Shown piece after piece: positions 13,219-54,477 of a DNA stretch of 64,000 bases. Made by a program: the position numbers and the translations under genes. This DNA comes from Candidatus Bathyarchaeota archaeon. Its GTDB lineage: Archaea > Thermoproteota > Bathyarchaeia > Bathyarchaeales > Bathycorpusculaceae. Location: positions 124,001 to 188,000 of the forward strand of contig JAOZHU010000015.1 in assembly GCA_026014705.1 (NCBI GenBank), in the 5' to 3' direction. The number at the start of each line of letters is the position of its first letter. Position 1 is the first letter of the stretch. Under the pieces are notes generated by a model. The model made no database searches and was not told the origin of the DNA. It saw only the letters and a program-made list of their open reading frames with translations.

Positions 13219-13371
13219 CCTAATAGAAACTCATTGCACACACCTATAGAGGGTCTATCCCACACTGTGCTCCCAGCGCTATACAAAAAGAGGCTATAGC
13301 CCACACGAACGCAACAGAACACATTTATAGTATAAATAAGGGGGGTATAATCTTTTCCACGCGCTAGTACA
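13219..13371 (-). repeat. Dispersed intergenic element, copy 1 (contains two CTATAG/TATA-like modules)
   Basis: Reverse strand reads GTGTACTAGCGCGTGGAAAAGATTATACCCCCCTTATTTATACTATAAATG...GGGCTATAGCCTCTTTTTGTATAGCGCTGGGAGCACAGTGTGGGATAGACCCTCTATAGGTGTGTGCAATGAGTTTCTATTAGG; matches copies at 20.6, 28.9 and 54.4 kb. Confidence 0.8.
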
Positions 13372-13429
13372 CAAGCCCCAACCTACTTCAAAAAACATCC
13401 GCAGTCAATGGCAAATTTGCAGTTACTCT

Positions 13430-13915
13430 TCACTTCGCCTTCCTGAACGCACGAGTGTACACGTTCGAAGACACACCCGCAACCAAACCGCCAATAGCAT
13501 CATTCGTAAGCGGACCAAGCTTCTTCAAAATCCCAGGCTTCGCCTGATCAAACCGCGTGAACTCAAAAACGCCTCTCACACCTGCAAGATAATTAGCTAT
13601 AGCTAACCCCAACAATTCATCAGCCACAAGTCCAGGTCGCCCCATGAAACGCTCCTTTGACAAGCCAGGAATCAAGCCTTTCTCAGCGTCTTCCTGCGCG
13701 CGGAAACAGGCAACCTCCAAAGTAGCCACATTCACATCTGACAAGGCATCGAGAAACTCTTCCCGCAGCATCTCAGCCGCTGCTTCTTCAGTTTCTAAAC
13801 CTGGATGCGGCACGAAAAGCTCGAGCGCCGTGTCCACGAGATCCTTTAGCGTAATACCCTTCTTTTCAAGATAAACCAGTAATGGCGGATTTTCAGGGTT
13901 CATTTCTATCAACAC
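13430..13915 (-). CDS. PgpA-like / CobZ-type alpha-ribazole phosphatase candidate
   Basis: C-terminal DELLGLAIANYLAGVRGVFEFTRFDQAKPGILKKLGPLTNDAIGGLVAG resembles the PgpA/CobZ family; located beside B12 transport genes. Confidence 0.6.
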   Translation of the reverse strand: MLIEMNPENPPLLVYLEKKGITLKDLVDTALELFVPHPGLETEEAAAEMLREEFLDALSDVNVATLEVACFRAQEDAEKGLIPGLSKERFMGRPGLVADELLGLAIANYLAGVRGVFEFTRFDQAKPGILKKLGPLTNDAIGGLVAGVSSNVYTRAFRKAK

Positions 13916-14129
13916 TTTGTCTTATGATGGAGTTTATTTTAAGTGTTGCGTGTTTTCGGAAGTTTTATAAGCTTGCGTGGATAAGCCATCCAAGTAAAGA
14001 AGGGGGTAAAAAACGAAAACCAAATACATCATTACAACAATCGCTATAATCGCATTAATTGCCATTGCAGCTTTTGCTTATGTTTACTATCAGGGACAAA
14101 CTAACACGCAACTTGAAGCTCTGCATAAC

Positions 14130-14969
14130 TTGGTTGACGACACTGGCTACGTTACCACTCTGGATGCCGTCCCCAACAGAATCGTCTCAATTGCACCCAG
14201 CGCCACAGAGATCGTGTTTGCCTTAGGTTTAGACGACAAGGTCGTAGCAGTTAGCGACGTTTGTGACTACCCTTACAATTTTTCGGCATGGGTTGCCGCT
14301 GGCAACATGACAAGCATAGTCTTTTCCAAACCGAGTGTCGAAGCGATCGTTTCTCTTAACCCAGACCTGGTTATCGCCACTGGAGGAGTCCAAGCGGAAA
14401 CTGCTAGCACTCTGCGGAACCTAGGCTACAAGGTGTTAATATTAGATCCAACTAGCGTTGACGGCGTTTTAAGGAACATTGAACTGGTGGGAAACGCAAC
14501 CTGCAAAACCGCAGAAGCCAAAGCTCTAGTTGCCAGCATCAGCAGTAGGATCGAAGCTGTAGTAAACAAAGTAGCTATTTCCGCGTATAAGCCGAAAGTC
14601 TACTATGAAGTCTGGTATGACCCCACTTCACTATGGACTGCAGGCGCGAAAGCGTGGCAGAACGAACTCATCCAAAAAGCAGGCGGCGTTAATCTTTTTG
14701 CTGACCAACAAGATGACTATTTCCAGTCCAGCGCCGAAGCTGTCATTGAACGAAACCCCGACGTGATTTTGCTGCCTAAAGAAGGAATGGGCATACAGTT
14801 TTGGGGAAGTATCGACGATGTCAAGGCGAGACCTGGCTGGAGTTCAATCAGCGCTGTGCAAAATGACAGATTTTGCTTAGTTGACTCAAGCACTATCGCT
14901 AGAGCTGGACCCAGAGTTGCTGACATTATAGAGGACTTGGCTAAGGCGTTTCATCCAGAACTCTTTTAA
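14130..14969 (+). CDS. btuF: Cobalamin-type ABC transporter substrate-binding protein (BtuF-like); reading frame extends upstream to about 14013
   Basis: NRIVSIAPSATEIVFALGLDDKVVAVSDVCDYP... typical of BtuF; upstream in-frame KTKYIITTIAIIALIAIAAFAYVYYQGQTNTQLEALHN is a membrane anchor/signal with no canonical start. Confidence 0.85.
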   Translation: MVDDTGYVTTLDAVPNRIVSIAPSATEIVFALGLDDKVVAVSDVCDYPYNFSAWVAAGNMTSIVFSKPSVEAIVSLNPDLVIATGGVQAETASTLRNLGYKVLILDPTSVDGVLRNIELVGNATCKTAEAKALVASISSRIEAVVNKVAISAYKPKVYYEVWYDPTSLWTAGAKAWQNELIQKAGGVNLFADQQDDYFQSSAEAVIERNPDVILLPKEGMGIQFWGSIDDVKARPGWSSISAVQNDRFCLVDSSTIARAGPRVADIIEDLAKAFHPELF

Positions 14970-14989
14970 ATCTCCCTCACTTTTTTTGT

Positions 14990-16087
14990 GTGAGCGTCAT
15001 GAGCACCGATGAAGTTGAAAGCGCATATTTTCGGCGTACTTCACGATGGAAACTAATAGTGCTCCTGTTGCTTGTAGCCCTATTTGTGACAGTTTTGGTA
15101 TCTCTGAATGTTGGTTATGCTCAGATACCATTCGAAAACATTCTCGCAATAATAGGTAAGCAGATTCCGTTTTTGAACGGCGCTGTCGATTCTTCGCTGG
15201 TTTTACCCACTGAAGCAGCAATTATTCTTCAAATACGGTTGCCGCGAATAACTGCCGGAGTTGTGGTGGGTGCTGCCTTGGCTGCGTCAGGTGTTGTGTA
15301 TCAAGGGGTATTCAAGAATCCCATGGCTGACTCGTACGTTTTAGGCGTGTCAGCTGGAGCAGCAGTTGGTGCTTCCTTCTCCATATTATTTGGTGCTGGC
15401 ATTGCCCTTTTTGGTTTTCGTCTTGTTCAAGTGGCAGCTTTTCTCGGCGCGCTGTTCGCTATGTTTCTGGTTTACAATATCTCCCGTGTTGGTTCAAGGG
15501 TTCCAGTGACCACGCTGTTGCTTTGCGGGATAGCGGTTAATTTTTTCCTTTATGCCATAGTCGCTCTTCTGGAAGTTATAGCTGGAGAGCAACTGCATGC
15601 AATAGTGTTTTGGTTAATAGGCGGTTTTTCAAACGTCTTGTGGGCAGACATATGGGCTGTGTTGCCATTCATCATAATAGGCACTGTGGCGTCGTATTTT
15701 TATGCTCGTGACTTAAACTTGCTGGCTCTCGGCGAAGACCAGGCTCAGCATCTAGGTGTAAACGTTGAGAAAGTAAAGCAGATACTCCTGATATTTGCCT
15801 CCATGGTGACTGCAGCGGCTGTTTCGCTCAGCGGTTTGGTGGGTTTTGTTGGTTTGATGGTTCCGCATATCACTAGGTTAGTTATTGGTCCTGATCACCG
15901 TATTCTTTTTCCAGCTTCAACCATTGTTGGCGCTATATTTCTGGTGGTTTGTGATGCTATCGCGAGAGTCATCGCTACGCCGTTTGCTTCGACCCTTGAA
16001 TTGCCTGTTGGAATAGTCACAATGCTGGCTGGTGCACCGTTCTTTATTATCTTGTTTAGAAAGAAGAAACAGAGCTATGCGCTGTGA
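14990..16087 (+). CDS. btuC: FecCD-family ABC transporter permease (BtuC-like)
   Basis: LRLPRITAGVVVGAALAASGVVYQGVFKNPMADSYVLGVSAGAAVGAS; VSLSGLVGFVGLMVPHITRLVIGPDHR. Confidence 0.93.
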   Translation: MSVMSTDEVESAYFRRTSRWKLIVLLLLVALFVTVLVSLNVGYAQIPFENILAIIGKQIPFLNGAVDSSLVLPTEAAIILQIRLPRITAGVVVGAALAASGVVYQGVFKNPMADSYVLGVSAGAAVGASFSILFGAGIALFGFRLVQVAAFLGALFAMFLVYNISRVGSRVPVTTLLLCGIAVNFFLYAIVALLEVIAGEQLHAIVFWLIGGFSNVLWADIWAVLPFIIIGTVASYFYARDLNLLALGEDQAQHLGVNVEKVKQILLIFASMVTAAAVSLSGLVGFVGLMVPHITRLVIGPDHRILFPASTIVGAIFLVVCDAIARVIATPFASTLELPVGIVTMLAGAPFFIILFRKKKQSYAL

Positions 16088-16098
16088 GAAGGTGATGA

Positions 16099-17451
16099 TT
16101 GGTGGTGTTGTTGAATGTTGATGGAGTCGAATGCCGCTATGGCTCCGTTAAAGTTCTGGAAGACGTGAGTCTTTCAGTGAAAGAGGGCGACTTCGTTGGA
16201 ATACTTGGACCTAACGGCTCTGGCAAAACCACCCTGCTCAAGAGCATAAGTAGAACGCTTAAGCCTCTCAGGGGTACAATTCTGCTCAACCAAGCGGACA
16301 TTTACTCTCTAAGAAGTGTAGAAGTTGCAAAGCAATTGGCTGTGGTTCCACAGGATAGCAATATAGGGTTCAGTTTCGCTGCGTTGGATGTTGTTCTCAT
16401 GGGACGCAACCCGCACATGACGCGGTTTCAGATGGAAAGCAGCAGGGACCTAGCTATCGCGAAGAAAGCCATGATTTTGACTAACACTTGGCAGTTTGCG
16501 GAACGCCCCATCAACGAGCTTAGTGGCGGCGAGCGGCAGCGTGTAATAATTGCGCGTGCGCTTGCGCAGGAACCCAAGCTTCTTCTGCTGGATGAACCTT
16601 TGACTCATTTGGATATTATTAACCAATTGGAGATCATGGATCTCGTGAAGGCGCTGTGCACTAAAGAGAAGCTGATTGTTCTCGCGGTTTTTCATGATTT
16701 GAACTTGGCTGCGCGTTACTGCGGTTCGGCTATAATGCTGAAGAAAGGCAAAATTTTTGCGGCTGGAAGCATAGCTGACGTTTTAACGAGTGAAAACATA
16801 AAAGGCGTTTTTGGCGTTGACGCCATAGTGCAGCGGCATTTGGTTACGAATTCAGTTTTTGTCATTCCTTTGTCGCCTCAGAAGCCTTTGCCGTCAAAGA
16901 AATGTGCAGTTCATTTGATATGTGGCGCTGGAACTGGAACAGCGCTCATGAAGGTCCTCTTAGATGAAGGCTACAGCGTTACTGCAGGAGTTCTCAACGT
17001 GCTAGACACGGATTTTGAGACTGCGCAGTTTTTGAAGATTCCCGTCGTGACTGAGGCACCGTTTTCTCCGATAACTGAAAAAGCTCATAATTCCAATTTA
17101 GAAATGATTCGCAAGGCAAGCATGGTGGTGTTGACTTCTGTTCCATTTGGCTATGGCAACTTCCAGAATTTGGAGGCTGCAGAGGAGGCTGTATCTAGGC
17201 AAGTGCCCACGTTTGTTATTGAGGAAGTGCCCGTAGAGCGCCGAGATTTCACTCAGGGGAAAGCGTCCAAGTTGTTGTTGAAGTTGAAAAAGATGGGAGC
17301 TATATCTGTCAAAAATCAAACTGAGTTGTTAGACATGCTTCATGTATCTGCGGAAAAACAAAAAGTAATAAAAGATGATGCAGCTAAACTGCTGTGTCAC
17401 ATGAGACCGAGAGAAGAAACTGAACAAAAGAATAAGGAGGAGATTGTATGA
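16099..17451 (+). CDS. btuD: ABC transporter ATP-binding protein (BtuD-like) with C-terminal extension of about 190 aa
   Basis: Walker A GPNGSGKTT, signature LSGGERQRV, Walker B LLLLDEPLTHLD; extra C-terminal Rossmann-like domain beginning CAVHLICGAGTGTALMKVLLDEGY. Confidence 0.92.
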   Translation: MVVLLNVDGVECRYGSVKVLEDVSLSVKEGDFVGILGPNGSGKTTLLKSISRTLKPLRGTILLNQADIYSLRSVEVAKQLAVVPQDSNIGFSFAALDVVLMGRNPHMTRFQMESSRDLAIAKKAMILTNTWQFAERPINELSGGERQRVIIARALAQEPKLLLLDEPLTHLDIINQLEIMDLVKALCTKEKLIVLAVFHDLNLAARYCGSAIMLKKGKIFAAGSIADVLTSENIKGVFGVDAIVQRHLVTNSVFVIPLSPQKPLPSKKCAVHLICGAGTGTALMKVLLDEGYSVTAGVLNVLDTDFETAQFLKIPVVTEAPFSPITEKAHNSNLEMIRKASMVVLTSVPFGYGNFQNLEAAEEAVSRQVPTFVIEEVPVERRDFTQGKASKLLLKLKKMGAISVKNQTELLDMLHVSAEKQKVIKDDAAKLLCHMRPREETEQKNKEEIV

Positions 17452-18122
17452 AAGTTGTGGCTTCATGGAGCGGTGGAAAAGACAGTTGCTTCGCGTGTTA
17501 CAAGGCAATTCAAGAAGGCTACGATGTAACGCAACTGCTAATCATGATGGCGAACAAAGGCACATCGAATTTTCACATGATCAGCGCTGGGCTGCTGGAC
17601 GCGCAATCTCAATCTATCGGAATCCCAATAGTCAAGCAGGAAACTACGCCAAATACCTACGAGCAGGACTTCAAAAAAGCACTGCTGAAAATGAAAGCTA
17701 AAGGCGTGGGGGGAATCGTGACTGGAGACGTTTACGATGTTGCCTTGCACGAAGCAGGTTGGCTGGACCGTGTCTGCAAAGCAGTGGGGTTGGAACCAGT
17801 GCGTCCGCTGTGGCATCGTGACACAGGTCAAATAATCAACGAATTCATAAACGCTGGTTTTAAGGCAACTGTGGTCAGAACCAAGAATGAAGTGTTGGGT
17901 TTAGAGTGGCTTGGAAGAGAAGTAAACAAGCAATTCCTAGCTGCGCTTCCCGCGAATGTAGACCCGTGCGGCGAAAACGGCGAGTTTCACACTTTTGTAA
18001 CTGATGGACCGAACTTCAAGAACCGTATAGATATACTTGAAAGTGAAAAGACAACGCTGAATGGTTATGGACGCTTAGAAATCAAGAGCTTCAAGGTTGA
18101 ACCAAAATGGCAGAAGGTTTGA
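17448..18122 (+). CDS. PP-loop ATPase, Dph6/MJ0570 (diphthine-ammonia ligase) family
   Basis: MKVVASWSGGKDSCFACYKA PP-loop; GGIVTGDVYDVALHEAGWLDRVCKAVGLEPVRPLW; CGENGEFHTFVTDGP. Confidence 0.85.
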   Translation: MKVVASWSGGKDSCFACYKAIQEGYDVTQLLIMMANKGTSNFHMISAGLLDAQSQSIGIPIVKQETTPNTYEQDFKKALLKMKAKGVGGIVTGDVYDVALHEAGWLDRVCKAVGLEPVRPLWHRDTGQIINEFINAGFKATVVRTKNEVLGLEWLGREVNKQFLAALPANVDPCGENGEFHTFVTDGPNFKNRIDILESEKTTLNGYGRLEIKSFKVEPKWQKV

Positions 18123-18131
18123 GGTGAGAAA

Positions 18132-19223
18132 ATGTTTGACACGCTGTTAGTTCATAATGAATTGAAGGGTGAAGCTTTCCTCGATGAACTGCGCGGTAAG
18201 AAACCGCTATTCGTGTGTACTATAGCTACGACAGAGACGGGTAAGATTCCCCAAATATCCGCTGCGGGAAAATACCCTGAGTTTACGGATTATACGCCAC
18301 CTGCAGATGCTGAGTTGCTTTTGTTGGGCAAGTGCAAGTGTATCGCGGGTGTTCCCGTGACGCCTGAAGGTATACCTACACCAGCGTTGATAACGATGTC
18401 TGCGTTGCGGTTGGCGGATATTCCTGTGTTGGTTGCTAGTGGTGGTTTAAAAGTGACGCCGCATGTGCCATTTTTGGAGTTGGGTGGGCACCCTGGAAAT
18501 GACATTCGAACTGGAAAGGCGGTGAATAACGTTGAGGAAGTCATCCAGCGAGCCAAGTTGGCTGGGGAGCATTTGGCTAAGGCAGCGGATTATCTTGTGA
18601 TTGGCGAGAGTATTCCTGGTGGAACTACAACGGCGCTGGGTGTTCTGATGGCTATGGGTGTGAATGCTGAAGGCAAGGTTAGTAGCAGTATGCCTGTGAA
18701 TCCTCATGGGTTAAAGGTTGATACTGTGCGGGCTGGGTTGGCTGCGGCTGGTGAGCGTTTTGGCAGTTTAGCGGAAAATCCGGTTAGAGCTATTTCCTGT
18801 GTGGGTGACCCTATGATGCCTGCTTTTGCAGGGTTGGTTATTGGTGCTGCTGCGCAAGTGCCTGTTTTGATGGCTGGTGGAACCCAGATGACTGCTGTTT
18901 TAGCTGTTGTTAACGCTTTGGAACCTGATGTTTTGTGCAATGTGGCTATTGGCACAACGAAGTGGGTTGCGCGTGATGTTTCTGCTGATATTAAGGGGAT
19001 TGTTGCTCAGATAGCGGATGTGCCTGTTTTGGCGGCTGATTTGGATTTTGGTTCTTCTCGGTTTAGCGGGTTAAAGGCTTATGAGCAGGGTGTTGTTAAG
19101 GAAGGTGTTGGAGCTGGTGGCGCTGCTATAGCGGCGATGGTGAAGTTGGAAGGTGCCGTGACTAAGGCGATGCTTCTTAAAGAGGTTGAAAGAAATTACG
19201 CTGTGTTGATGGGAACGAAGTGA
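18132..19223 (+). CDS. cobT: Nicotinate-nucleotide--dimethylbenzimidazole phosphoribosyltransferase-like, archaeal CobT
   Basis: FVCTIATTETGKIPQISAAGKYPEFTDYTPPADAE..., VIGESIPGGTTTALGVLMAMG; in operon with cobS/cobY. Confidence 0.88.
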   Translation: MFDTLLVHNELKGEAFLDELRGKKPLFVCTIATTETGKIPQISAAGKYPEFTDYTPPADAELLLLGKCKCIAGVPVTPEGIPTPALITMSALRLADIPVLVASGGLKVTPHVPFLELGGHPGNDIRTGKAVNNVEEVIQRAKLAGEHLAKAADYLVIGESIPGGTTTALGVLMAMGVNAEGKVSSSMPVNPHGLKVDTVRAGLAAAGERFGSLAENPVRAISCVGDPMMPAFAGLVIGAAAQVPVLMAGGTQMTAVLAVVNALEPDVLCNVAIGTTKWVARDVSADIKGIVAQIADVPVLAADLDFGSSRFSGLKAYEQGVVKEGVGAGGAAIAAMVKLEGAVTKAMLLKEVERNYAVLMGTK

Positions 19224-19988
19224 TTGGGTGGGATGCTGAAAGAGATTAGGAACCTCTTGTCTTTTCTCACTGCTATTCCAGTAAATATGGATAAGGATTG
19301 TTTGACTGATTCTGCGAAGTGCATGTTTCTTTTTCCCTTGATTGGCGCGTTTATCGGTTTGTTGGCTGGTGCGTTCGCTTGGGCATCGGCGCTGTTTCTT
19401 CCCAGTTTGGTTGTTGGTGCATTAGCTTTGGGGCTTTTGCTTTTGATAACTGGGCTTCATCACACGGATGGACTGCTGGATTTCGGCGATGGTGTTATGG
19501 CGCATGGTTCGGCGGAAAGAAAAATCGAAATTATGCACGACCAGTTGACTGGTGCTGGTGGCTTAACGTTGGGGATCATGACTTATCTGGTTACAGCGTT
19601 TGCCCTTGCCGAGTTCCCCAGAGGCATAATAATGCTTCAAGGCTTAATAGTCGCTGAGGTTTCTGCCAAACTCTCCATGGTTGTAGCTACATGGGCTGGA
19701 AAAGCCGTGCACACGGGCATGAATTCACCGTTTATGCAAGCGATGCACGGTAAAAACGGTACCTTTCGTTTAATTGCCGCCTTAGTTGTTTCATTTGTTA
19801 TAGCAGTGCCTTTGTTGCGATTGGCGGGGATTGTAACTTTACTGGCTGCTGTAATCACAAGCTTAACTATGGTTGCTGTGGCGCATAGACATTTTAAGGG
19901 TGTGACAGGTGACGTTTTGGGTGCAACCAATGAGCTTACGCGGATGGTTGCGTTAATTGTATTGTTGGCTGTGATTGGATGGGTGTAA
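19224..19988 (+). CDS. cobS: Adenosylcobinamide-GDP ribazoletransferase CobS (copy 1)
   Basis: LLSFLTAIPV, GAFIGLLAGA, TGLHHTDGLLDFGDGVMAHGSAERKIEIMHDQLTGAGG, GDVLGATNELTR. Confidence 0.92.
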   Translation: MGGMLKEIRNLLSFLTAIPVNMDKDCLTDSAKCMFLFPLIGAFIGLLAGAFAWASALFLPSLVVGALALGLLLLITGLHHTDGLLDFGDGVMAHGSAERKIEIMHDQLTGAGGLTLGIMTYLVTAFALAEFPRGIIMLQGLIVAEVSAKLSMVVATWAGKAVHTGMNSPFMQAMHGKNGTFRLIAALVVSFVIAVPLLRLAGIVTLLAAVITSLTMVAVAHRHFKGVTGDVLGATNELTRMVALIVLLAVIGWV

Positions 19989-20593
19989 CTGCGCTGGTGA
20001 TGGCTGGTGGGAAAGGCGTTCGTATGGCGCTTTCAGAGGAGAAACCGCTGTTAACAGTCGGCGGCAAACCTGTGATTGAACGTGTTTTAGCAGCGCTACA
20101 AAAAGCAACGAAAGTCGAAGCAATAGTCGTTGCCGTGAGCAGTCACACGCCGAAAACCGCGAAACACATGAGTAACTTTCCAGTTAAGATCATCGAAACG
20201 CCTGGAAAAGAGTATGTTTCAGACATGGGATACGCTGTAAAGACGCTTAAACTGGAGGCAGTTTTAGCCATTGCAGCCGATTTGCCGTTAATTACAGGCG
20301 AAATCATTGATAAAATTGTGGCGCGGTATGAACAGTGCGGGAAGCCTGCTTTATCAGTTGCAGTGCCTATGGCTACAAAAGTAGCGCTTGGCTTAGGCGG
20401 AGAATACGGTTTCGAAGTTGATGGCGTGCATGTGGTTCCTGCTGGGATTAATATGATTGATGGTAGGCGAATCAGCGAGAAAGAGCTTGAGCAAGAAATT
20501 TACGTAATGGATAAACAAGAAATAGCTGTGAACATCAACACCGTTCAGGAACTCGAGATAGCTGAGAACTTGCTCAAGAAGAGAAGTGCTTGA
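19979..20593 (+). CDS. cobY: Adenosylcobinamide-phosphate guanylyltransferase-like NTP transferase CobY (copy 1)
   Basis: MAGGKGVRMALSEEKPLLTVGGKPVIERVL; overlaps cobS. Confidence 0.85.
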   Translation: MGVTALVMAGGKGVRMALSEEKPLLTVGGKPVIERVLAALQKATKVEAIVVAVSSHTPKTAKHMSNFPVKIIETPGKEYVSDMGYAVKTLKLEAVLAIAADLPLITGEIIDKIVARYEQCGKPALSVAVPMATKVALGLGGEYGFEVDGVHVVPAGINMIDGRRISEKELEQEIYVMDKQEIAVNINTVQELEIAENLLKKRSA

Positions 20594-20602
20594 AAAATGG
20601 GT

Positions 20603-20710
20603 TAACTGATGCGCTTGGAGCAATCTATAGCCCCCTTTTAAATAGTTTATATAGCGTTGGAGGCGCTGTTCGGGATAGACCCTCTACTGGTCTCTGCAAT
20701 GAGTTTCGAA
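20603..20710 (+). repeat. Dispersed intergenic element, copy 2
   Basis: CTATAGCCCCCTTTTAAATAGTTTATATAGCGTTGGAGGCGCTGTTCGGGATAGACCCTCTACTGGTCTCTGCAATGA; by eye 71/78 positions identical to copy 3. Confidence 0.85.
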
Positions 20711-20758
20711 TATCCTTTAAGGTATTCTGGGGTAATGTGGCTGCCGTGTACAAGTAGG

Positions 20759-21439: not shown

Positions 21440-21566
21440 GCGCTTGATTAACTGCTAAGCAGTAGAGTACCTGAGCCAAGTGCGCCTTATAAAAACTGTG
21501 TTTTCAAGGTAAAATGGAGAAGACACCATAAGATTATAATAGTTTGCTGGTTGTGGAGTTTACGCA

Positions 21567-22736: not shown

Positions 22737-22783
22737 GCGGCAGTTAAAACTATATTTTATTTCATTTCCTTCGTAGCGGAAAG

Positions 22784-24000: not shown

Positions 24001-24005
24001 ACTGG

Positions 24006-26344: not shown

Positions 26345-27276
26345 TGGGGCATTTTCCTCTCGCGGATTATTTCTCTCAAATTGTCTTCAAGTCGCACTTG
26401 CGGGTGCCACTGGAGTTCTCTTTGCGCTTTGCTGATGTCGAACCATATTGTGTCGATGTCGCCTTGCCACGAGACGTTAGTGGTCGTTACAATCGTTTTT
26501 CCCGCCAAATTGAGAATCTTCAGAATCATTTTTGCAAGGTCAATTATCTTCGTGGTTGTGCCGAAGCCCAAGTTGTAGGTTTGACCCAGCGCGTTTTCTT
26601 TTGCCGCAGCTAAAATTAAACCGTTAACAATGTCTGAGACGTGCACGAAGTCTCTTGACTGTAGTCCTGTGCCGATGATTTCCAGTTTCGCCGGGTTTCT
26701 TTGCAGTTTATCTAGAAAATCGTGTATTACGCCGTGGCATCGTGAGCCGTAAACGTTGGCGAAACGTAGAATGGTGATGTCAAGCCCGTACTGGTTCATG
26801 TACATTTTGCAGTATTGTTCACCGACGACTTTAGATAAGCCGTAGCAAGAGAACGGGTTGAAACCGTAGTCTTCAGGCGTTGGGAACTTGGCGGGGTTGC
26901 CGTACACCGCGGCGCTTGAGGCAAAAACCACCCGTGAATCGTCTTTGCGGGCTTTTTCAAGCACGTTTAATGTGCCGCGTGCGTTGGTTTCAAAATCCGC
27001 TATTGGGTTTTCCATAGAGTAGGGTACAACCACTTGGGCAGCCAGATGGAAAATTAAGTCGGCTTTTTCTAGAGTGCAGAGTTTTTTGAGGTTCAGGATG
27101 TCGTCTTGTATGAATTTGGCTTTGGGTACATCCTTGACGTTTTCCAGTTTGCCGCTTGACAGGTTATCGTATATGGTCAAGTTGGGCGCTAATTCTGCCA
27201 GTTTTCTGCACAAATGAAAACCGATGAAACCTGCACCACCAGTTACGAGTATTCTCTTATTCTCAAATTGCTCCAT
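26341..27276 (-). CDS. NAD-dependent epimerase/dehydratase (UDP-glucose 4-epimerase type)
   Basis: MEQFENKRILVTGGAGFIGFHLCRKLAEL; YGLSKVVGEQYCKMY. The supplied ORF extends to 27462 but the extension is antisense to cobS2; true start near 27276. Confidence 0.9.
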   Translation of the reverse strand: MEQFENKRILVTGGAGFIGFHLCRKLAELAPNLTIYDNLSSGKLENVKDVPKAKFIQDDILNLKKLCTLEKADLIFHLAAQVVVPYSMENPIADFETNARGTLNVLEKARKDDSRVVFASSAAVYGNPAKFPTPEDYGFNPFSCYGLSKVVGEQYCKMYMNQYGLDITILRFANVYGSRCHGVIHDFLDKLQRNPAKLEIIGTGLQSRDFVHVSDIVNGLILAAAKENALGQTYNLGFGTTTKIIDLAKMILKILNLAGKTIVTTTNVSWQGDIDTIWFDISKAQRELQWHPQVRLEDNLREIIRERKMPQ

Positions 27277-27325
27277 GAGGTTCACGACAAAGGCTATATT
27301 CTTATTTAGACGAGTGTTAGGGTAT

Positions 27326-28150
27326 ATGTCGAAGATGAAAGCTATAAAAACTTTTAGGGATTTGCTGTCTTTTCTCACTGTGATACCGTTGGGTAAGACG
27401 GAAGATTTCATCGTGACAGCCGCTGAGGCGATTTTCCTTTTTCCCGTGGCTGGCGCGTTCATCGGACTGCTCGGCGCAGCGTACTTTGTTGGTTGCAGTT
27501 ACTTGACATCGCATCTGTTCGTGTTTGCAAACAACATAATTCCCTATACGCCTGTTGAATTCTTGTCGCGGCTTGTTCCCGCGGTGATGACTCTGGCGTT
27601 TTTGCTCGTGCTGACTGGACTCCAGCATTTCGACGGGCTAGTGGATTTAGGCAACGCTGCAGGCTTACGCAACGCTGAAGAACGGCGAGCAGTGGCACAC
27701 GCGTGGACTGTAACTTACAAAGGAGCCATACTAGCGCTTTTTGTCGAGTTTATAGCAGTGATAGGCTTGTTTTTCCTGAACTGGGATTTTGCTTTCAAGG
27801 CATTAATCGCATCGGAGGTTGCAGCTAAACTGGCGATGGTGACAATTGCGCGGTTTGGACAGCCAACGCATAAAGGGTTGGGTTCACGTTTTCTCAGCAA
27901 AGCTAAACAGAAGCGCACCGTTGCCGCGTATTTTCTGGCGGTCATCATCGTGCTCCCGCTTTTTGGCTTCACAAGCTTCGGGTTGGTGCTCAGTGCTGGA
28001 ATAATTTTGACAAGCGTCCTTCTCGGCGCTTTAATGGTGCGAGTGGCGAAAAACGTGTTCGGCGGAGTATCCGGCGACGCGATAGGTGCAACAAACGAAA
28101 TCGTCAGAGCTGCATCGTTGGTTTTTGCAGCAGGAGTGTTGATGGTGTGA
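27326..28150 (+). CDS. cobS: CobS-family protein, second divergent copy
   Basis: FRDLLSFLTVIPLGKTEDF...FLFPVAGAFIGLLGA...LTGLQHFDGLVDLGNAAGLRNAEERRAVAHAW...GDAIGATNEIVRA. Confidence 0.8.
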   Translation: MSKMKAIKTFRDLLSFLTVIPLGKTEDFIVTAAEAIFLFPVAGAFIGLLGAAYFVGCSYLTSHLFVFANNIIPYTPVEFLSRLVPAVMTLAFLLVLTGLQHFDGLVDLGNAAGLRNAEERRAVAHAWTVTYKGAILALFVEFIAVIGLFFLNWDFAFKALIASEVAAKLAMVTIARFGQPTHKGLGSRFLSKAKQKRTVAAYFLAVIIVLPLFGFTSFGLVLSAGIILTSVLLGALMVRVAKNVFGGVSGDAIGATNEIVRAASLVFAAGVLMV

Positions 28151-28770
28151 AGATTCCAGCGTTGATTATGGCTGGCGGCAAAGGCACAAGGATAGGGTTG
28201 CCTGTTGAGAAACCATTGTTGCCTTTCTTGGGGAAGCCGCTTATCGACTGGGTTGTTGACGCTGTGAAGTCAGCGGAGAAGATTTCAGAGTTTTACGTTG
28301 TAACCAGCAGAAACGCGGTGGAAACAGAGCGCAAGTGCCTCGAAGATGGGTTGAAAGTCATAAGAACCGATGGCAAAGGCTATCATGATGACTTGAAGCA
28401 AGCCATTTTTGAAGCGCGGTTGCCGGGTGCTGTTTTGACGATGCCTGCGGATTTGCCGGCGGTGACTGGGAAGTTTCTTGATAAGGTAGTCACAGCCTAT
28501 GAGGAGTGCGGAAAGGATGCGTTGGCGGTTTTTGTTCCCATTAGTACACGCGAGGCGTTGGGCTTGTCGGTTTCATCTACGGATGAGCATAAGGGAGTTT
28601 GGCATGCGGTTTCAGGCGTTAATGTGATTAACAGTGCACGGGTTAGGGATGAGGGAAAAATCGAGACTGGCGCAATTATTACGGATGAGGTTGAAGTGCT
28701 TTTGAATATCAACACTTTGAAGGATTTGGAGATAGCTGAGAAAATCCTGCGCGAAGCCAAGAAAACATGA
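28147..28770 (+). CDS. cobY: CobY-like NTP transferase, second copy
   Basis: ALIMAGGKGTRIGLPVEKPLLPFLGKPLIDWVVDAV; overlaps cobS2 by 4 nt. Confidence 0.8.
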   Translation: MKIPALIMAGGKGTRIGLPVEKPLLPFLGKPLIDWVVDAVKSAEKISEFYVVTSRNAVETERKCLEDGLKVIRTDGKGYHDDLKQAIFEARLPGAVLTMPADLPAVTGKFLDKVVTAYEECGKDALAVFVPISTREALGLSVSSTDEHKGVWHAVSGVNVINSARVRDEGKIETGAIITDEVEVLLNINTLKDLEIAEKILREAKKT

Positions 28771-28847
28771 TGTCTTCGCAATTAACGCGTTGCAAAGGTA
28801 ATTTGCTGCTTGTCCGTGAATAATGTTTTCATCGTTTTCAGGGCAGC

Positions 28848-28960
28848 GTGGACTAGTGCTCGTGGCGGTCTATAGCCCCCTTTTAAATAGTTTATATAGT
28901 GTTGGAGGCGGTGTGCGGGATAGACCCTCTATAGGCTTCTGCAATGAACCACTAATAGGC
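28848..28960 (+). repeat. Dispersed intergenic element, copy 3
   Basis: GTGGACTAGTGCTCGTGGCGGTCTATAGCCCCCTTTTAAATAGTTTATATAGTGTTGGAGGCGGTGTGCGGGATAGACCCTCTATAGGCTTCTGCAATGAACCACTAATAGG. Confidence 0.85.
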
Positions 28961-29178
28961 GCCAAATAGGCTTGCACTGATAGATTCCTCCCTTCTCCTT
29001 TTCTTAGTTTGGCTATTAGACATCAAATATGTGGGCATTGGTGCCGTTTACGTGTTTTCCGTTTTGGATTGGAGTTAGTCAAGAAAATTTGACCGAGAAA
29101 ACTCCGCTTTAGTCAAGAAACCTTGATAAAAACCCTTTTTACTGCCGCGGTTGGACATAGTTTTGTCGGGAAAAGAGA

Positions 29179-32608: not shown

Positions 32609-32683
32609 ACAGTCACCACCACCCGCTTTCCCTTCAAGTTACCAAAATTTTTAAACAATTTTCTATAAGGGCGCAAACAACCA

Positions 32684-38060: not shown

Positions 38061-38066
38061 ACTCAC

Positions 38067-38654: not shown

Positions 38655-38696
38655 ATACCCTCGCGCCTCTAATGGTTGAATAATAAGAAAAGGGAG

Positions 38697-40106: not shown

Positions 40107-40118
40107 TTCAATCGCCTT

Positions 40119-41144: not shown

Positions 41145-41151
41145 GCGCGCT

Positions 41152-43349: not shown

Positions 43350-43468
43350 AGTTCCATCTCTAAACCCGCAGATTGTATAAGCCTGTGAGTATTATTTGTG
43401 CTGTTCAGCAACTTCATTTTCGAGCACATCTTTTTCCGTGGTCACTACTCCTTTCTCGTGGGGCGTGG

Positions 43469-44047: not shown

Positions 44048-44081
44048 GATGCACGAATGTACCAGTTGACACATTTAAAGT

Positions 44082-45401: not shown

Positions 45402-45433
45402 CCTGTTCACAGAAAAAGTTGGGAGAACATGCG

Positions 45434-46945: not shown

Positions 46946-46954
46946 AATAGGGCA

Positions 46955-48097: not shown

Positions 48098-48099
48098 AA

Positions 48100-51000
48100 A
48101 TGCCCAAGTTTGACTGGATACGTAAAGTTCTGGTGTTGGGCAGCGGTGCCATAAAAATTGGAGAAGCCGCCGAGTTTGATTATTCTGGAAGCCAATGCCT
48201 TAAAGCCCTCAAGGAGGAAGGCATCGAAACCGTTCTGGTAAACCCGAACATAGCCACTATTCAAACTGACCCCCGGCTGTCTGGAAAAGTGTATTTACTC
48301 CCTGTAACGCCTGAATACGTTGAGCAAGTGATTGAAAAAGAAAGACCTGACGGCATCCTATTGGGTTTCGGCGGGCAAACAGCGTTAAACTGCGGCGTGG
48401 AACTCGCAAGAAAAGGTGTCTACGAAAAATATGGCGTAAAAGTTCTGGGGACGCAAATCGAAGCAATAGAAGACACGGGAAACCGAGAGCGTTTTAGACA
48501 AGCAATGGTCAAAGCTGGGGTGCCGCCGTTAAGAAGCAAAGCTGCTTCAACAGTGCGGGGCGCTCTTGACGTTGCCAACGAAATCGGCTACCCCGTCATA
48601 GTCCGCGTGGCTTATACTCTCGGAGGCAGAGGCGCAGGTGTAGCCCACAACGCTTGGGAGCTAAAGGAAATAGTCACGCGAGGCTTGGCTCAGAGCAGAA
48701 TAACTCAAGTGCTTGTGGAAGAGTACGTGGGTCACTGGAAAGAAGTTGAGTACGAAGTAATGCGTGATTACGCGGATAACTGCTTAACCGTGTGCAACAT
48801 GGAAAACTTCGACCCTATGGGCGTGCACACAGGCGACTCAATCGTAATAGCGCCTTCGCAGACATTGACAAACCGCGAGTACCACCTCATTAGATCCGCA
48901 TCTATCGCGGCGATTCGAAGTCTGGGCATAGTCGGAGAATGCAACATTCAGTGGGCTTTGCATCCGAAGTCAGAGGAGTTCCGCGTCATAGAAGTCAACT
49001 CGCGCTTGTCGCGCAGTTCAGCGCTTGCAAGCAAAGTCACAGGTTACCCGCTAGCGTACATAGCAACGAAATTGTCCATAGGTTATACGCTTCCTGAATT
49101 GATAAACAAGGTCACGGAAGTCACCACTGCTTGTTTTGAACCCGCTTTGGACTACGTTACAGTTAAGATTCCGCGGTGGGACCTGCAGAAGTTCAAGAAC
49201 GCAGACCGACACATTGGTCCTCAGATGCGATCGGTAGGCGAAGTAATGTCTATCGGTCGCTGCCTTGAAGAAGCCTTGCAAAAGGCGGTGCGCATGTGCG
49301 ATACAGGCAAGATCGGGCTGGTCTGTAACCTTGAAGAATCAGAATCTGAATCGATAGAGAAAATCAAGGATGTGCTGGCGAATCCCACTGACGAGCGTCT
49401 CTTCAAAATAGTCAAAGCCCTGAAAAGAGGTATCTCGGTTGAAGAAATCTATCAACTGAGCGGTATTGATCCATTCTTCTTGTATAAAATTCAGAACATC
49501 ATAAACATGGAAGAAAGACTGCGGGCACTACAGCTTAAAGATAGTGCGGCGCGCGAAACTGTGCGTGAAGCCAAGCGTCTGGGCTTTTCTGACGAGCAAA
49601 TAGCAATCTGCATAGGCGCCAGCGAGGCTGAAGTTAGACAGTTTAGAAAAACGGCGAACATTATTCCCGCAGTCAAGCAGATAGACACACTTGCGGCTGA
49701 ATGGCCTGCAAAGACCAATTATCTTTACTTAACCTATGGCGGAGACGAAGATGACGTAGAACTGGACAGCGGCAAAAGTAAAGTTATGGTGTTGGGGGCG
49801 GGAGTTTTCAGGATTGGCTCAAGTGTTGAGTTCGATTGGTGCGGCGTCAACACGATTTGGGCTTTGAAGAAAAACGGCATTCAAGAAGCTATAATGGTCA
49901 ACTACAACCCCGAAACTGTATCAACAGATTATGATGTTTCCGACAAACTCTACTTTGAGGAGTTAACTACTGAAAGGATTTTGGATATTTACGACAAAGA
50001 GAACCCATTAGGCGTCATAGCCAGCGTTGGCGGGCAAATCCCAAATAATTTAGCTATGAAACTGGCAAATTCTGGCGTGAAGTTATTGGGCACAGCGGCG
50101 GAAGATATCGATGTAGCTGAAGACAGGTCAAAATTCAGCGCACTGCTGGATCAATTGGGTATTTCACAGCCAGACTGGAGCAAACTCACATCTATAGATG
50201 CTGCGAAGAAATTTGCGGAGAAAATCGGCTATCCCGTAATAGTGCGCCCTAGCTACGTGCTCTCAGGCTCTGCGATGCGCGTAGCTTATAACGAAATGAT
50301 GCTGGAGAACTTTCTTAATTTGGCAGCGAAAGTTTCTCGCGATCATCCAGTTGTTATTTCCAAATTTATAGACAAAGCCAAAGAAGTTGAAGTTGACGGC
50401 GTTTCTGACGGAGAAACCTGCGTTATCGGCTCAATAATGGAGCATGTAGAGAATGCAGGTGTTCACAGCGGCGACGCCACAATGAGCATTCCACCTCAGA
50501 CGCTTTCTCTTGAAGTTCAAAAGAAAATTGAAGAATGCACGTACAAAATTGTGAAGGCTCTGAAAATCCACGGTCCATACAACATTCAGTATCTCGTAAA
50601 AGACGGTGCTGTCCATGTTATCGAATGCAACCTCCGCGCCTCAAGATCCATGCCTTTCGTAAGCAAGACCCGCGGTTTGAATCTCATTGAACTGGCCACT
50701 TTGGCGATGCTGGGCAAAAAATTCAGAGAGTTGCAGATATGCGGGCTGCCACCTATCACGCATGTAGGCGTTAAAGTGCCGCAGTTTAGTTTCATGCGTT
50801 TAAGCGGTGCGGATCCAGTGCTGGGCGTGGAAATGCTCAGCACGGGCGAAGTAGCCTGTTTAGGCGAAAACTTTGCTGATGCTTTTTCGAAGGCGTTGCA
50901 GTCTGCCGAATTCAGAATTCCACCTCGCGGAGGCTCCGTGCTCATAACTGTTGGCGGTGAAGAAGCCAAGAGGAGAGTTGTGCCTTTGGCGAAGGCTTTT

Positions 51001-51375
51001 GAGGAGATGGGTTTCACGATTTACGCTACTGCTCACACGGCAGAAGCCTTGCAGGCAGCAGGCATAAGCACAGTGTCTGTTCTGTACAAGGTTAAGGAGG
51101 CTGATGCGAACCCGAATATTCTCGATTACCTTCAGGAGCGCAAGATTGATTTGGTTATAAACGTGCCTATGGGGAACAAGCAGAAAAGCTACTCGGACGT
51201 TTTGACTGACGGCTACATTATCCGCAGGCAAGCTGTGGAATTCAACGTTCCAGTGATAACGAACTTGGAGTTAGCATCTGCCCTTGTAAAAGTCCTGCAG
51301 CAGCAAGGAAACGATGGCGCTGTTGTTCGCTCCTTGAACGAGTACATGGATAGCTTGCCATGGAAACTCTGGTAG
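48100..51375 (+). CDS. carB: Carbamoyl-phosphate synthase large subunit
   Basis: Single 1091 aa ORF with two synthetase halves: VLVLGSGAIKIGEAAEFDYSGSQCLKALKEEGI; VMVLGAGVFRIGSSVEFDWCGVNTIWALKKNG. Confidence 0.97.
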   Translation: MPKFDWIRKVLVLGSGAIKIGEAAEFDYSGSQCLKALKEEGIETVLVNPNIATIQTDPRLSGKVYLLPVTPEYVEQVIEKERPDGILLGFGGQTALNCGVELARKGVYEKYGVKVLGTQIEAIEDTGNRERFRQAMVKAGVPPLRSKAASTVRGALDVANEIGYPVIVRVAYTLGGRGAGVAHNAWELKEIVTRGLAQSRITQVLVEEYVGHWKEVEYEVMRDYADNCLTVCNMENFDPMGVHTGDSIVIAPSQTLTNREYHLIRSASIAAIRSLGIVGECNIQWALHPKSEEFRVIEVNSRLSRSSALASKVTGYPLAYIATKLSIGYTLPELINKVTEVTTACFEPALDYVTVKIPRWDLQKFKNADRHIGPQMRSVGEVMSIGRCLEEALQKAVRMCDTGKIGLVCNLEESESESIEKIKDVLANPTDERLFKIVKALKRGISVEEIYQLSGIDPFFLYKIQNIINMEERLRALQLKDSAARETVREAKRLGFSDEQIAICIGASEAEVRQFRKTANIIPAVKQIDTLAAEWPAKTNYLYLTYGGDEDDVELDSGKSKVMVLGAGVFRIGSSVEFDWCGVNTIWALKKNGIQEAIMVNYNPETVSTDYDVSDKLYFEELTTERILDIYDKENPLGVIASVGGQIPNNLAMKLANSGVKLLGTAAEDIDVAEDRSKFSALLDQLGISQPDWSKLTSIDAAKKFAEKIGYPVIVRPSYVLSGSAMRVAYNEMMLENFLNLAAKVSRDHPVVISKFIDKAKEVEVDGVSDGETCVIGSIMEHVENAGVHSGDATMSIPPQTLSLEVQKKIEECTYKIVKALKIHGPYNIQYLVKDGAVHVIECNLRASRSMPFVSKTRGLNLIELATLAMLGKKFRELQICGLPPITHVGVKVPQFSFMRLSGADPVLGVEMLSTGEVACLGENFADAFSKALQSAEFRIPPRGGSVLITVGGEEAKRRVVPLAKAFEEMGFTIYATAHTAEALQAAGISTVSVLYKVKEADANPNILDYLQERKIDLVINVPMGNKQKSYSDVLTDGYIIRRQAVEFNVPVITNLELASALVKVLQQQGNDGAVVRSLNEYMDSLPWKLW

Positions 51376-51427
51376 GCTAACTTCGCAGGCACTGTCGCTG
51401 TTTTCTCGATGGCTACGGTTTTTGTAG

Positions 51428-51533
51428 TGCCGGGGGCGGGATTCGAGCCCGCGACTTCTGGTTGTAGGGCGCTTGCCCCTTGCAAACTCCAGATTATGAG
51501 TCTGGCGCCCTAGCCAGGCTAGGCTACCCCGGC
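51428..51533 (-). tRNA. tRNA-Met (CAT), elongator-like, with ~31-nt intron in the variable loop
   Basis: Reverse strand: GCCGGGGTAGCCTAGCCTGGCTAGGGCGCCAGACTCATAATCTGGAG[TTTGCAAGGGGCAAGCGCCCTACAACCAGAA]GTCGCGGGCTCGAATCCCGCCCCCGGCA; acceptor, D, anticodon and T stems all pair; removal of bracketed sequence leaves 75 nt. Confidence 0.92.
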
Positions 51534-51921
51534 GATGGTTGTTGCTATGTTACTTTGGTTGCTTTGAAATAAATCTTTTCTATTCAAATCTGCGCTGCGC
51601 TTCCGTTTATTTAGAGACTGTTTGTAATTGGGGGTTTTGATTTTTTGGGGTGTTTGTGAAGTGAATAGTGTTAAATTTTCTGGGTTAGGGAAGTGGGGTT
51701 ATGGTGTCCTATTTTCGGTTTTTTGGAGAAAGCGATTGTGTTGTGAGGTTCACAGAGTCGCGTGGTGTTTGTTTATTTAGCCAATGGTGGGGTTGTGTGT
51801 GGTTTTCGTAGGGGTTGCTGGAAATAGATGTGTTTCTGCAAGTTGCCTAACAATGGTGGCTGCAAGATTGTTAATGGTTGTTTTGGGGGCTGAGTAAGGG
51901 TTAAGGTTTTTTGTGTTTGGT

Positions 51922-52641
51922 TTAGGTTGTTTTTTGTTTTCTTTCTATTTTTTCTGTTGTGGTGTTTGTTGTGATGTAGGCTATGTTGGTGGTGTTGAGG
52001 AAGAGTCCTGTTTCGACTATGCCTGGGATTGTTTTTAGGGTTTGTTCGAGTTTTTTGGGGTTGTTTATGGGTCCGAATGTGGCGTCTATGATGGCGTTGC
52101 CGTTGTCCGTTATTACTGGTCCGAGTTTGCCTTTTGTTTCTCGTATGGTGGGGTTGCCGCCGATTTGTTGGATTTTGCGGTTGACTGGAGTTAAGGCGAA
52201 GGGTATGACTTCTATTGGTACTGGGTGGTTGTTTTCGCCTAGGGTTTGGACTTTTTTGGTGTGGTCGGCTATGATGATGTTTTGTTTTGTTGCTGAGGCT
52301 ACGATTTTTTCCCGTGTGAGCGCTGCGCCCATGCCTTTGATGAGGTTTAGGTGTGGGTCTATTTGGTCTGCTCCGTCTATTGTTACGTCGATTGTGGGGT
52401 GTTCTTCTAGTGTAGTTATTGTGATGCCGTGTTTGACTGCTAGGAGGAAGGCTTGGTAGGATGTGGGGATGGCGAGTATGTTTAGTTTTTCGTTGCGTAT
52501 TTTTTGGGATAGGGTTTTTATGGCGTAGGCGGCTGTGCTTCCGCTTCCTAAGCCTACGATGTGGTTGTTTTTGATGTGTTTTATGGCTTCTTGGGCGGCT
52601 TTTTGTTTGGCTTGTTCAAGTTGTGTGTTTTCAGGTTTCAA
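51922..52641 (-). CDS. rpiA: Ribose-5-phosphate isomerase A
   Basis: VGLGSGSTAAYAIKTLSQKI; TIDGADQIDPHLNLIKGMGAALTREKIVA. Confidence 0.95.
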   Translation of the reverse strand: MKPENTQLEQAKQKAAQEAIKHIKNNHIVGLGSGSTAAYAIKTLSQKIRNEKLNILAIPTSYQAFLLAVKHGITITTLEEHPTIDVTIDGADQIDPHLNLIKGMGAALTREKIVASATKQNIIIADHTKKVQTLGENNHPVPIEVIPFALTPVNRKIQQIGGNPTIRETKGKLGPVITDNGNAIIDATFGPINNPKKLEQTLKTIPGIVETGLFLNTTNIAYITTNTTTEKIERKQKTT

Positions 52642-53341
52642 TTTCCATCTGTCCCAGTTTGTCTAAGACTTTTTCGACTTCGGTTCGGATTTCTTCTATT
52701 CGTTTTTCTGCTTCGGTTTTTGCGGTTGGTTTTTCGGGTGGTTTGCGTTTCTTTTTGGGTTTTGTTTCGTCTTGTTTTTCTTCGGTTTCTTCTTCTGCTG
52801 TTTCCTCTAGTGCGGCTGGTTGTGGTGGTGTGGGTATTTTTACTTCTTTTATGGGTTTTACGTCGATTTTTGAGCGGAGTTCTTCTACTTTGCTGGTCAG
52901 TTCGCCGAAGCGTTCGCTGAAGAGTTTCATTAAATCTTCTTGCATGCTTTCGAGTTCGTGCAGGGCTACGACGGTTTCGTCTTTGGCTATGGATTCTTTT
53001 ACGTTCATCATTCGGGCTTTGTAGGTTCCTGCTAGTCGTTCGCGTTCTTCTTCGGTGATTTTGCCTGCTGCGTGTGCTTCGTATAGTCTGCGTATGGCGT
53101 CGCTGAGGATTTCTCTTTCCAGGTCCAGCATGCGTAACTCGTCTTTGGCGCGTGTGGCGTCTGTGGGTTGGATGCTTTTGGAGATTTTGAATGGTAAGCC
53201 AAGTTCTGCTTCTATGGTGGGTTTTTCTTGGGGTTTTTCGGGTTTTTTGGTGTGTTTTCGCATGGCGTAGATGACGATTCCGCAGGCTACTACGATTGTT
53301 AGAACTATTGCGGTTATGGTTGCGGGGTCGTCTAGAGCCAT
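52631..53341 (-). CDS. Membrane-anchored coiled-coil hypothetical protein
   Basis: N-terminal TM (ITAIVLTIVVACGIVIYAM) then long charged heptad-like region and Lys/Glu/Pro-rich tail. Confidence 0.7.
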   Translation of the reverse strand: MALDDPATITAIVLTIVVACGIVIYAMRKHTKKPEKPQEKPTIEAELGLPFKISKSIQPTDATRAKDELRMLDLEREILSDAIRRLYEAHAAGKITEEERERLAGTYKARMMNVKESIAKDETVVALHELESMQEDLMKLFSERFGELTSKVEELRSKIDVKPIKEVKIPTPPQPAALEETAEEETEEKQDETKPKKKRKPPEKPTAKTEAEKRIEEIRTEVEKVLDKLGQMEIET

Positions 53342-53382
53342 GTTATCCTCTGTATCTCATTGCTTAATGGTGTATATATAAA

Positions 53383-54171
53383 TTATATAACTGGTGTCTG
53401 CTGTGTGTGTTGCATGGTGGCGGCGAAAAGTTCTGCTTTGCGTCCTGAATGTGAGCAGCATATGCCGGGAATTTTGTTGATTTCTACTTTTGCGAAGTGT
53501 GCTTCAGCCATTTTTCGGATGTCGTCAAGCTTGAAGCCCAAGTGCATGTCTCCCATTTCTGTTTTGAATTCTTCGAAGTTGTGTTGGCAGAGGTCGAGAA
53601 TTACGGCTTTGCCGTTCTTTTTCAGCACGGTGCTTATGCTTCGGAAGACTTTTTCTGGTTCTGGGCTGTGGTGCAGCATGAGTGTGGAGAATGCGGCGTC
53701 GAATTTGCGTGGGATGGCAGCGTAGGCTTTTGCCATTTTTATGCTTGCGTGGAGGTTTTCGGCTATGCCGAGAAACGCGGTTATGCCTGCTTGTTTCTTT
53801 TCTAGCGCTAGCAGCATTGCGGGTGTGGCGTCCATGGCGTAGAAGGTGACGTTTGGGATTGTGCGGTTTACGTTTTGGGCGATTTTGGCTGTGAAGAACC
53901 CTGAACCTGCACCAATGTCCAGCACCTTCGAGCCACTTCGAAGCGCTGGTGGCGAGAGTAAGCGGCAGGTTATGGCTTCGACGATTCGATTTACGCCTGT
54001 TTCGCCGAAATAGCTTTGCACGATTGCGTCGCGTTTTTCGCCTTCCGCAAGCGTGAAATGCTGCACAGTTTTGGCTAATGTTTCAGGGTTTGTTGTGTCT
54101 AAGTTGCGGAAGAACTGTGTCATGTTCAGATTTTGTGTGTATTCTGCGAGTTTGGTGGGCATTTTATTCAC
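53383..54171 (-). CDS. Class I SAM-dependent methyltransferase
   Basis: SKVLDIGAGSGFFTAKIAQNV; FDAAFSTLMLHHSPEPEKVFRSISTVLKKNGKAVILDL. Confidence 0.85.
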   Translation of the reverse strand: MNKMPTKLAEYTQNLNMTQFFRNLDTTNPETLAKTVQHFTLAEGEKRDAIVQSYFGETGVNRIVEAITCRLLSPPALRSGSKVLDIGAGSGFFTAKIAQNVNRTIPNVTFYAMDATPAMLLALEKKQAGITAFLGIAENLHASIKMAKAYAAIPRKFDAAFSTLMLHHSPEPEKVFRSISTVLKKNGKAVILDLCQHNFEEFKTEMGDMHLGFKLDDIRKMAEAHFAKVEINKIPGICCSHSGRKAELFAATMQHTQQTPVI

Positions 54172-54312
54172 GGCTTCAGCGTTTATTAGCGTGCAGGGTT
54201 GGCTTTAATTTTTTGCGTAATGCCTAGAGACTATGGGTTTAAGTGGAGGTGTTGTGCTGGCTATTTGGCTTTTTGTTTTGGGTGCTTGAACGTGCGGCAA
54301 CAATGTTTGGTG

Positions 54313-54477
54313 GTGTACTAGCGCGTGGAAAAAACTATAGACCCCTTATAAAAACTATAAATAGGCACTATTGTGTTTGGGGCAGTCTATAGCTCCCTCT
54401 TAAATTGTTTATTTAGGGTTGGAAGAAGCGTTGCGGGTGAGTCTTCTGCTGTTTTCTGGAGTGGTTTTCTAATAGGT
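54313..54477 (+). repeat. Dispersed intergenic element, copy 4 (two-module form)
   Basis: GTGTACTAGCGCGTGGAAAAAACTATAGACCCCTTATAAAAACTATAAATAGG...GGGGCAGTCTATAGCTCCCTCTTAAATTGTTTATTTAGGGTTGGAAGAAGCGTTGCGGGTGAGTC...CTAATAGG; its first 20 nt are identical to copy 1. Confidence 0.75.

Follow-up and report, generated by a model that had tools for sequence, protein, structure and literature searches.

What is the repeated sequence that lies four times between the genes of one stretch of archaeal DNA, and what might it do there? The stretch (the window) comprises 64,000 nucleotides of a Candidatus Bathyarchaeota archaeon (assembly GCA_026014705.1, contig JAOZHU010000015.1, positions 124,001 to 188,000), and an earlier reading of its sequence, here called the original prediction, had reported an undescribed dispersed intergenic element. 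This was borne out: the four repeats are members of a previously undescribed intergenic family of some Bathyarchaeia, which is genome-wide and much larger than first reported. The conserved positions of its members, their even spacing and their absence from some sister species suggest that they are address sites for a putative chromosome-binding factor. Searches of the literature turned up no account of such elements in Bathyarchaeia.

The four copies were verified at 13371–13219 (minus strand), 20603–20710, 28848–28960 and 54313–54477 (all plus strand), as was the 20-mer GTGTACTAGCGCGTGGAAAA, identical in copies 1 and 4. Their resemblance is beyond chance: a search of the window's own assembly (G000, 1.99 Mb in 44 contigs) with copy 3 recovered copy 2 at E = 1.4e-25, among 41 matches with E ≤ 10, most far below 1 and the ten best from 1.5e-41 to 2.8e-17. 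The window copies score between 2.3e-37 and 4.2e-22 with a 126-column nhmmer profile of the element, and profile scanning of genomes, the check that had been proposed, found many further copies in G000 and its relatives. In the alignment of the G000 matches, the element resolves into two modules, A and B, that are independent of each other: many copies consist of A only or of B only. A C-tract with twin TATA-like boxes makes up module A. Module B, a core of about 45–58 nt (GGGATAGACCCTCTATAGGTTTCTGCAATGAACCACTAATAGGCTCCAAATATG), is the conserved unit; of the two modules, only B is conserved in further genera of the family of G000.

Distribution, positions and spacing of module B

Module B was sought in other genomes, mostly fragmented metagenome-assembled genomes (MAGs), with a sequence-only model (R1), which is weaker on diverged versions, and with a pattern for the 19-nt 3' core CTAWTAGGNNCCAAATATG (at most one mismatch, 163 genomes of the order, reversed pattern as control); "absent" means absent for the model or the pattern. 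R1 matches number 35 in G000, 73 in G012, 47 in G017, 100 in G024, 53 in G032 and 90 in G110. The pattern reaches its maximum of 119 in G094, with 58 in G116 and 53 in G058, a member of another family, and the reversed control is close to 0. Three single one-mismatch matches in 94 genomes outside the order leave the core essentially order-confined; viral contigs gave no match to the element, and the GTDB r220 contigs a single exact match, in the Bathyarchaeota MAG 'isolate SQ'. Presence is all-or-none in close relatives, with 26 copies in G104 versus one in its sister G107, and 119 in G094 versus one in G093, which is 85% identical to G094 over the searched guaA stretch; many sister species lack B. 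The single good match in G001 lies in DNA 100% identical to G012 over 442 nt plus two genes (L036 and L144 on G001:C42, L084 on G012:C1). The two genera differ elsewhere, and this stretch is probably cross-contamination between MAGs.

That none of the copies lies in a gene, as first stated for the window, extends to the family. Nine genomes supplied 189 B sites for this count, with open reading frames (ORFs) called by a simple longest-ORF rule; one site overlaps an ORF of 200 aa or more, where random placement within the same loci would give 86. The sites also keep their places. Nearest neighbours of B sites were compared between genomes, and homologous neighbours were scored for side and orientation: both agree in 30 of 48 pairs, versus 25% expected, and in about 25 of 40 once duplicates are removed (P = 6e-7). 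For the congeners G012 and G084, a G012 counterpart exists for 13 of the 21 G084 sites sampled, and 14 of 15 homologous pairs agree. Most positions are common to the species of a genus, and about a fifth are common to G012 and G032. In genus g11, elements 3' of guaA are common to G094, G095, G108, G110 and G116, and other testable sites are shared as well.

At orthologous sites within a genus, the B core is 79% identical and the flanking intergenic DNA 49% and 55%; between genera, the flanks are hardly alignable. Conservation of the core and not of its flanks is the pattern of maintained functional sequence, and of the two causes first offered, selection or recent spread, it supports selection. 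All copies of one genome carry shared lineage-specific signatures, for example AGCCGCCAAATATGAAGGCGC in G032; either the sites co-evolve with a common putative binding factor, or the copies are homogenised.

For spacing, tandem copies were merged and compared with uniformly random positions, ignoring gene structure. The mean gap is 33 kb in G032 (coefficient of variation 0.51 versus 0.91 random, p = 0.0004), 25 kb in G012 (0.78 versus 0.97, p = 0.036) and 40 kb in G110 (0.67 versus 0.95, p = 0.0006). Spacing is more even than random in all three genomes (combined p = 1.6e-6), and gaps below 8 kb are depleted. Tens of dispersed sites (53–90 matches) with a non-random, over-dispersed distribution are what chromosome-organising sites should present. 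An apparent alternation of strands between successive copies in G032, striking at first on an incomplete list, was gone on the full lists (by hand count about 23 of 33 in G032 and 26 of 47 in G012; 29 of 64 in G110).

Anatomy of the copies and their relation to genes

The modules of the four window copies are as follows.

13323–13369, minus strand: upstream degenerate module A of copy 1 (GTGTACTAGCGCGTGGAAAAGATTATACCCCCCTTATTTATACTATAAATG; nhmmer with the element profile, E = 0.0034)
13261–13317, minus strand: module A of copy 1, a shortened C-tract/TATA block (CTATAGCCTCTTTTTGTATAG), and spacer (nhmmer 13317–13205, E = 4.2e-22)
13205–13260, minus strand: module B of copy 1 (GGATAGACCCTCTATAGGTGTGTGCAATGAGTTTCTATTAGGAGCAAAATAGG; R1, G000:C4:137205–137260, E = 1.2e-10)
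20606–20672, plus strand: module A of copy 2 with conserved upstream GCGCTTGGAGCAAT and spacer, CTATAGCCCCC starting at 20625 (nhmmer 20606–20722, E = 2.6e-34)
20673–20712, plus strand: module B of copy 2, truncated at its 3' end (R1, G000:C4:144673–144712, E = 1.2e-5)
28852–28917, plus strand: module A of copy 3, CTATAGCCCCC starting at 28870 (nhmmer 28852–28973, E = 2.3e-37)
28918–28973, plus strand: module B of copy 3, intact, ending in CTAATAGGCGCCAAATAGG (R1, G000:C4:152918–152973, E = 1.1e-16)
54315–54364, plus strand: first module A of copy 4 (GTGTACTAGCGCGTGGAAAAAACTATAGACCCCTTATAAAAACTATAAATAG; nhmmer E = 1.6e-4)
54368–54483, plus strand: second module A of copy 4, intact (CTATAG at 54387), then a decayed B (nhmmer E = 3.8e-22; no R1 match to the B part at E ≤ 0.01)

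The extra upstream module ascribed to copies 1 and 4 is present, but it is a second, degenerate A and not a module of its own. In A, a GCGC-TGGAGCA-like upstream block is followed by CTATAGCCCCCTTTTAAATAGTTTATATAG and a short palindrome such as AGCGCTGAAAGCGCT. Module A without B occupies at least nine sites in G000 (L016, L018, L019, L021, L022, L026, L027, L029 and L030), some of them between convergent genes.

Core B is palindromic in part only (ATTWGGNNCCAAAT). The 3' half, CTAWTAGGNNCCAAATATG, forms the imperfect palindrome ATTWGG-NN-CCAAAT, which comes close to perfect symmetry in some divergent versions (e.g. TATTTGGAGCCAAATA in G021); weak matches in further genera retain the 3' core and have different 5' halves. 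The inverted repeat ATAGA-CCC-TCTAT, first noticed in the window, is not general, as many copies have ACTGG for ATAGG, or CTACC for ATAGACC. B contains a short open frame, but a coding reading was dropped: by eye, the C-tracts of different copies differ in length by single bases, and TAG ends many of the copies. The module upstream of B depends on the lineage: A in G000 and G024, and a hairpin-forming module C (CAACATGCTATTGG...CGCCAATA) in G012, G094, G098 and the tandem copies of G024; in G032 nothing is fixed there, neither A nor the C hairpin. Support for the C hairpin is modest, with 78.5% of cells paired versus 24–56% when slid and a covariation score matched by 8 of 500 shuffles; for the palindrome of A, between TATA and B, covariation is weak. 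Many G110 loci are same-strand dimers about 62 nt apart. B copies of G017 (L035, L047, L090–L099) have a further repeated stretch upstream, TTGACCCTTAGTAGGGTACCCTACGTTT...TACCCCCTCCCCC, with an inverted repeat of its own.

Three of the four window copies lie near vitamin B12 or energy-coupling factor (ECF) genes, and the original prediction had linked the element mostly to the former; some copies in G024 adjoin genes for kelch or NosD-like surface proteins. B could accordingly be a regulatory site for its neighbours (an operator, riboswitch-like leader or terminator), acting for instance on B12 or cell-surface genes. Orientation largely refutes this, and we regard it as very improbable. Relative to their upstream and downstream neighbours, B-containing elements are co/co in 22 cases, co/convergent in 20, divergent/co in 17 and divergent/convergent in 22, four classes about equal in size. 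Because this orientation is random, an mRNA leader, promoter or terminator of neighbouring genes is ruled out. Moreover, some conserved sites adjoin convergent genes, within a few bases of their 3' end. The link to B12 did not extend beyond the window: other copies adjoin glycosyltransferase, restriction-endonuclease, Toprim, mannosyltransferase and aminotransferase genes, and as the genes beside copies share no function, it is incidental.

A promoter plus short non-coding RNA (ncRNA) had also been proposed. Module A would be the promoter, in which the centre of TTTATATAG precedes GGGATAGACCC by about 26 nt; B would be the RNA. In G000 and G024, B starts at a nearly constant distance from the second TATA-like box despite changes in spacer sequence, which would agree with such a gene, and an independent gene might well be oriented at random. 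Nevertheless, we consider it unlikely, and as a promoter with its transcript the conserved part fits poorly with random orientation and with G032. This genome has the cleanest B copies, yet a fixed TATA upstream of B, rejected as a general rule, is lacking from it (10 TATA-like starts in the −50 bin versus 3–7 in the others, 53 copies); in three other genomes C replaces A, so that no promoter is consistent. Module A is without the GAAA-type element found before the TATA box of G000 tRNA genes, no conserved internal stem was seen by eye in B, and covariation supports the palindrome of A weakly and hairpin C modestly. Membership in a known Rfam family, raised at the outset as another outcome, was not found: the four copies have no match, and the only one in the window is a tRNA. 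This tRNA gene (51428–51533, 57.7 bits) is 106 nt long and therefore probably carries an intron.

Some neighbouring features deserve mention in their own right. At 19224–20593 and 27224–28770, the window holds two paralogous pairs of B12 genes, each followed in the same orientation by an element copy; the nucleotidyltransferase genes are 41% identical, their upstream neighbours 32%, and the element copies, far more alike, 91%. A second dispersed palindromic motif, GTCAAGAAATCTTGAC-like and often paired, is found downstream of several B copies and before kelch or NosD-like cell-surface genes (L045, L073, L074 and L078 in G024; L410 and L269 in G084/G012; 29079–29094 and 54494–54507 in the window); it is a different, operator-like element. 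The best-conserved element copy is followed, about 450 bp downstream, by a gene for a restriction endonuclease of the MvaI/BcnI family (L002 1213–1968, G000:C1).

Gain, loss and possible mobility

The main rival explanation is a selfish, non-autonomous mobile repeat, resembling repetitive extragenic palindromic (REP) sequences, miniature inverted-repeat transposable elements (MITEs) or enterobacterial repetitive intergenic consensus (ERIC) sequences and copied by a putative enzyme. Hairpin-plus-B units would insert into intergenic DNA, turn over slowly and vanish in many species. We take both the general explanation and this course of events to be possible rather than probable. Multiple copies, patchiness between sister species and signatures common to all copies of a genome would all follow, and sites filled in one species and empty in another exist. 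The guaA–glmU spacer is compact in G093 and other B-less species and about 190 bp long, with the element, in G094; at C1:64701, a 76-bp element in G094 corresponds to a 22-nt spacer in G093. Taken alone, these two pairs could be insertions; they show at most a 3-nt repeat, and their flanks are too diverged to fix borders. In G012, L086 and L087 form a recently duplicated pair, 95% identical over 119 bp, with abrupt bounds, at unrelated sites; copying therefore also happens.

A MITE-like repeat, suggested from the window, stays among the candidates, although a large number of the positions are old and common to different genera. No terminal inverted repeats were seen in the aligned copies, and A and B occur singly. 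The Y1 (IS200/REP-type) transposase, PF01797, was rejected as the mover: in genome-wide searches, made for Y1_Tnp only, it is absent from G000, G012, G017 and G024 (87–96% complete), four of the five high-copy genomes. It is present in G032, G010 and G021, and B copies are few in two of these three. Gain and loss were judged from a single gene tree and a handful of loci. In the guaA tree, the B-bearing species fall in scattered places, and the best tree needs six changes, two of them forced by well-supported branches. Because these scattered species share sites, and because G107 retains one intact B copy, insertion is no likelier than repeated wholesale loss; in g11, where B-bearing species share sites wherever testable, several empty sites are more simply losses.

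Candidate address sites and known systems

Of the options first listed, the evidence favours a protein-binding or chromatin site. Our preferred, still tentative, reading from the sequence comparisons is that module B provides DNA address sites for a putative trans-acting factor acting at the level of the chromosome. More cautiously, we propose an archaeal chromosome-address system in which intergenic sites of 45–58 bp, placed every 25–40 kb or so, retained in place from one genus to another and lost all together in sister species, would serve a putative nucleoid-organising, segregation or cell-cycle factor. Roughly 35–100 B sites per chromosome would be recognised by this putative DNA-binding factor, which might, for example, organise, anchor or segregate the nucleoid and would not act on neighbouring genes. 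The palindromic 3' half may be a dimer-binding site, as its form would lead one to expect, with the remainder of B (CCCTCTATAGGTTTCTGCA) and the upstream parts (A here, hairpin C in other genera) as accessories. The sites would be inherited at fixed positions under purifying selection, their shared lineage variants arising as copies evolve with the factor or are homogenised, and loss of the factor would entail loss of the whole set.

Several points weigh against the address-site reading. What the comparisons show is that the sites are intergenic, randomly oriented, conserved in position and in the core only, over-dispersed and patchily present; the factor, its binding and its chromosome-level role we infer. 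Over-dispersion, measured as it is against a uniform-position null, could also be due to transposition immunity or to selection that disfavours recombination of neighbouring copies. Orthologous copies usually resemble each other no more than they resemble the remaining copies, which fits continuing re-copying too. The tandem dimers and the lineage-specific upstream modules are unaccounted for.

Archaeal chromosome organisation and segregation are poorly known, and beyond replication origins and dif, sequence-specific chromosomal sites of archaea have, to our knowledge, hardly been described. A site family that is strictly intergenic and evenly spaced, that has stayed in place for the age of a genus at the least, and whose copies are present or missing together in sister species offers a direct way of seeking the cognate factor, through genes that track B presence across about 30 species of one genus. 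If the family is selfish instead, the apparent spread of so large an archaeal repeat family in the absence of the usual Y1 transposase would also be worth explaining.

Among known systems, integron attC sites are likewise about 60 bp, multi-copy and intergenic, and some of the upstream modules can form hairpins, a resemblance only; unlike attC, B lies outside gene-cassette arrays and has no fixed orientation to genes. ERIC-type elements and MITEs are about 80–190 bp long, intergenic and patchy between related species, and so are the B elements; these differ in showing no terminal inverted repeats in the aligned copies, in the separate occurrence of A and B, in the age of many positions and in that no partner transposase was found in the Y1_Tnp search. 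REPs are described in one account as usually exceeding 100 copies per genome and as binding sites for several proteins (PMC2817692). Like REPs and bacterial interspersed mosaic elements (BIMEs), B is short, multi-copy, strictly intergenic, often in tandem clusters and a candidate binding site for chromosomal proteins. Unlike them, its core is not a REP hairpin, its tandems have the same orientation, its positions are conserved between genera, and most of its high-copy genomes are without the Y1 transposase. The dispersed nucleoid sites of bacteria (Noc/NBS, SlmA/SBS and MatP/matS) are palindromes of about 12–20 bp with known proteins; B is longer, partly palindromic, strictly intergenic, archaeal and without a known protein, but like these sites it is present in tens of dispersed chromosomal copies, unrelated to the orientation of neighbouring genes.

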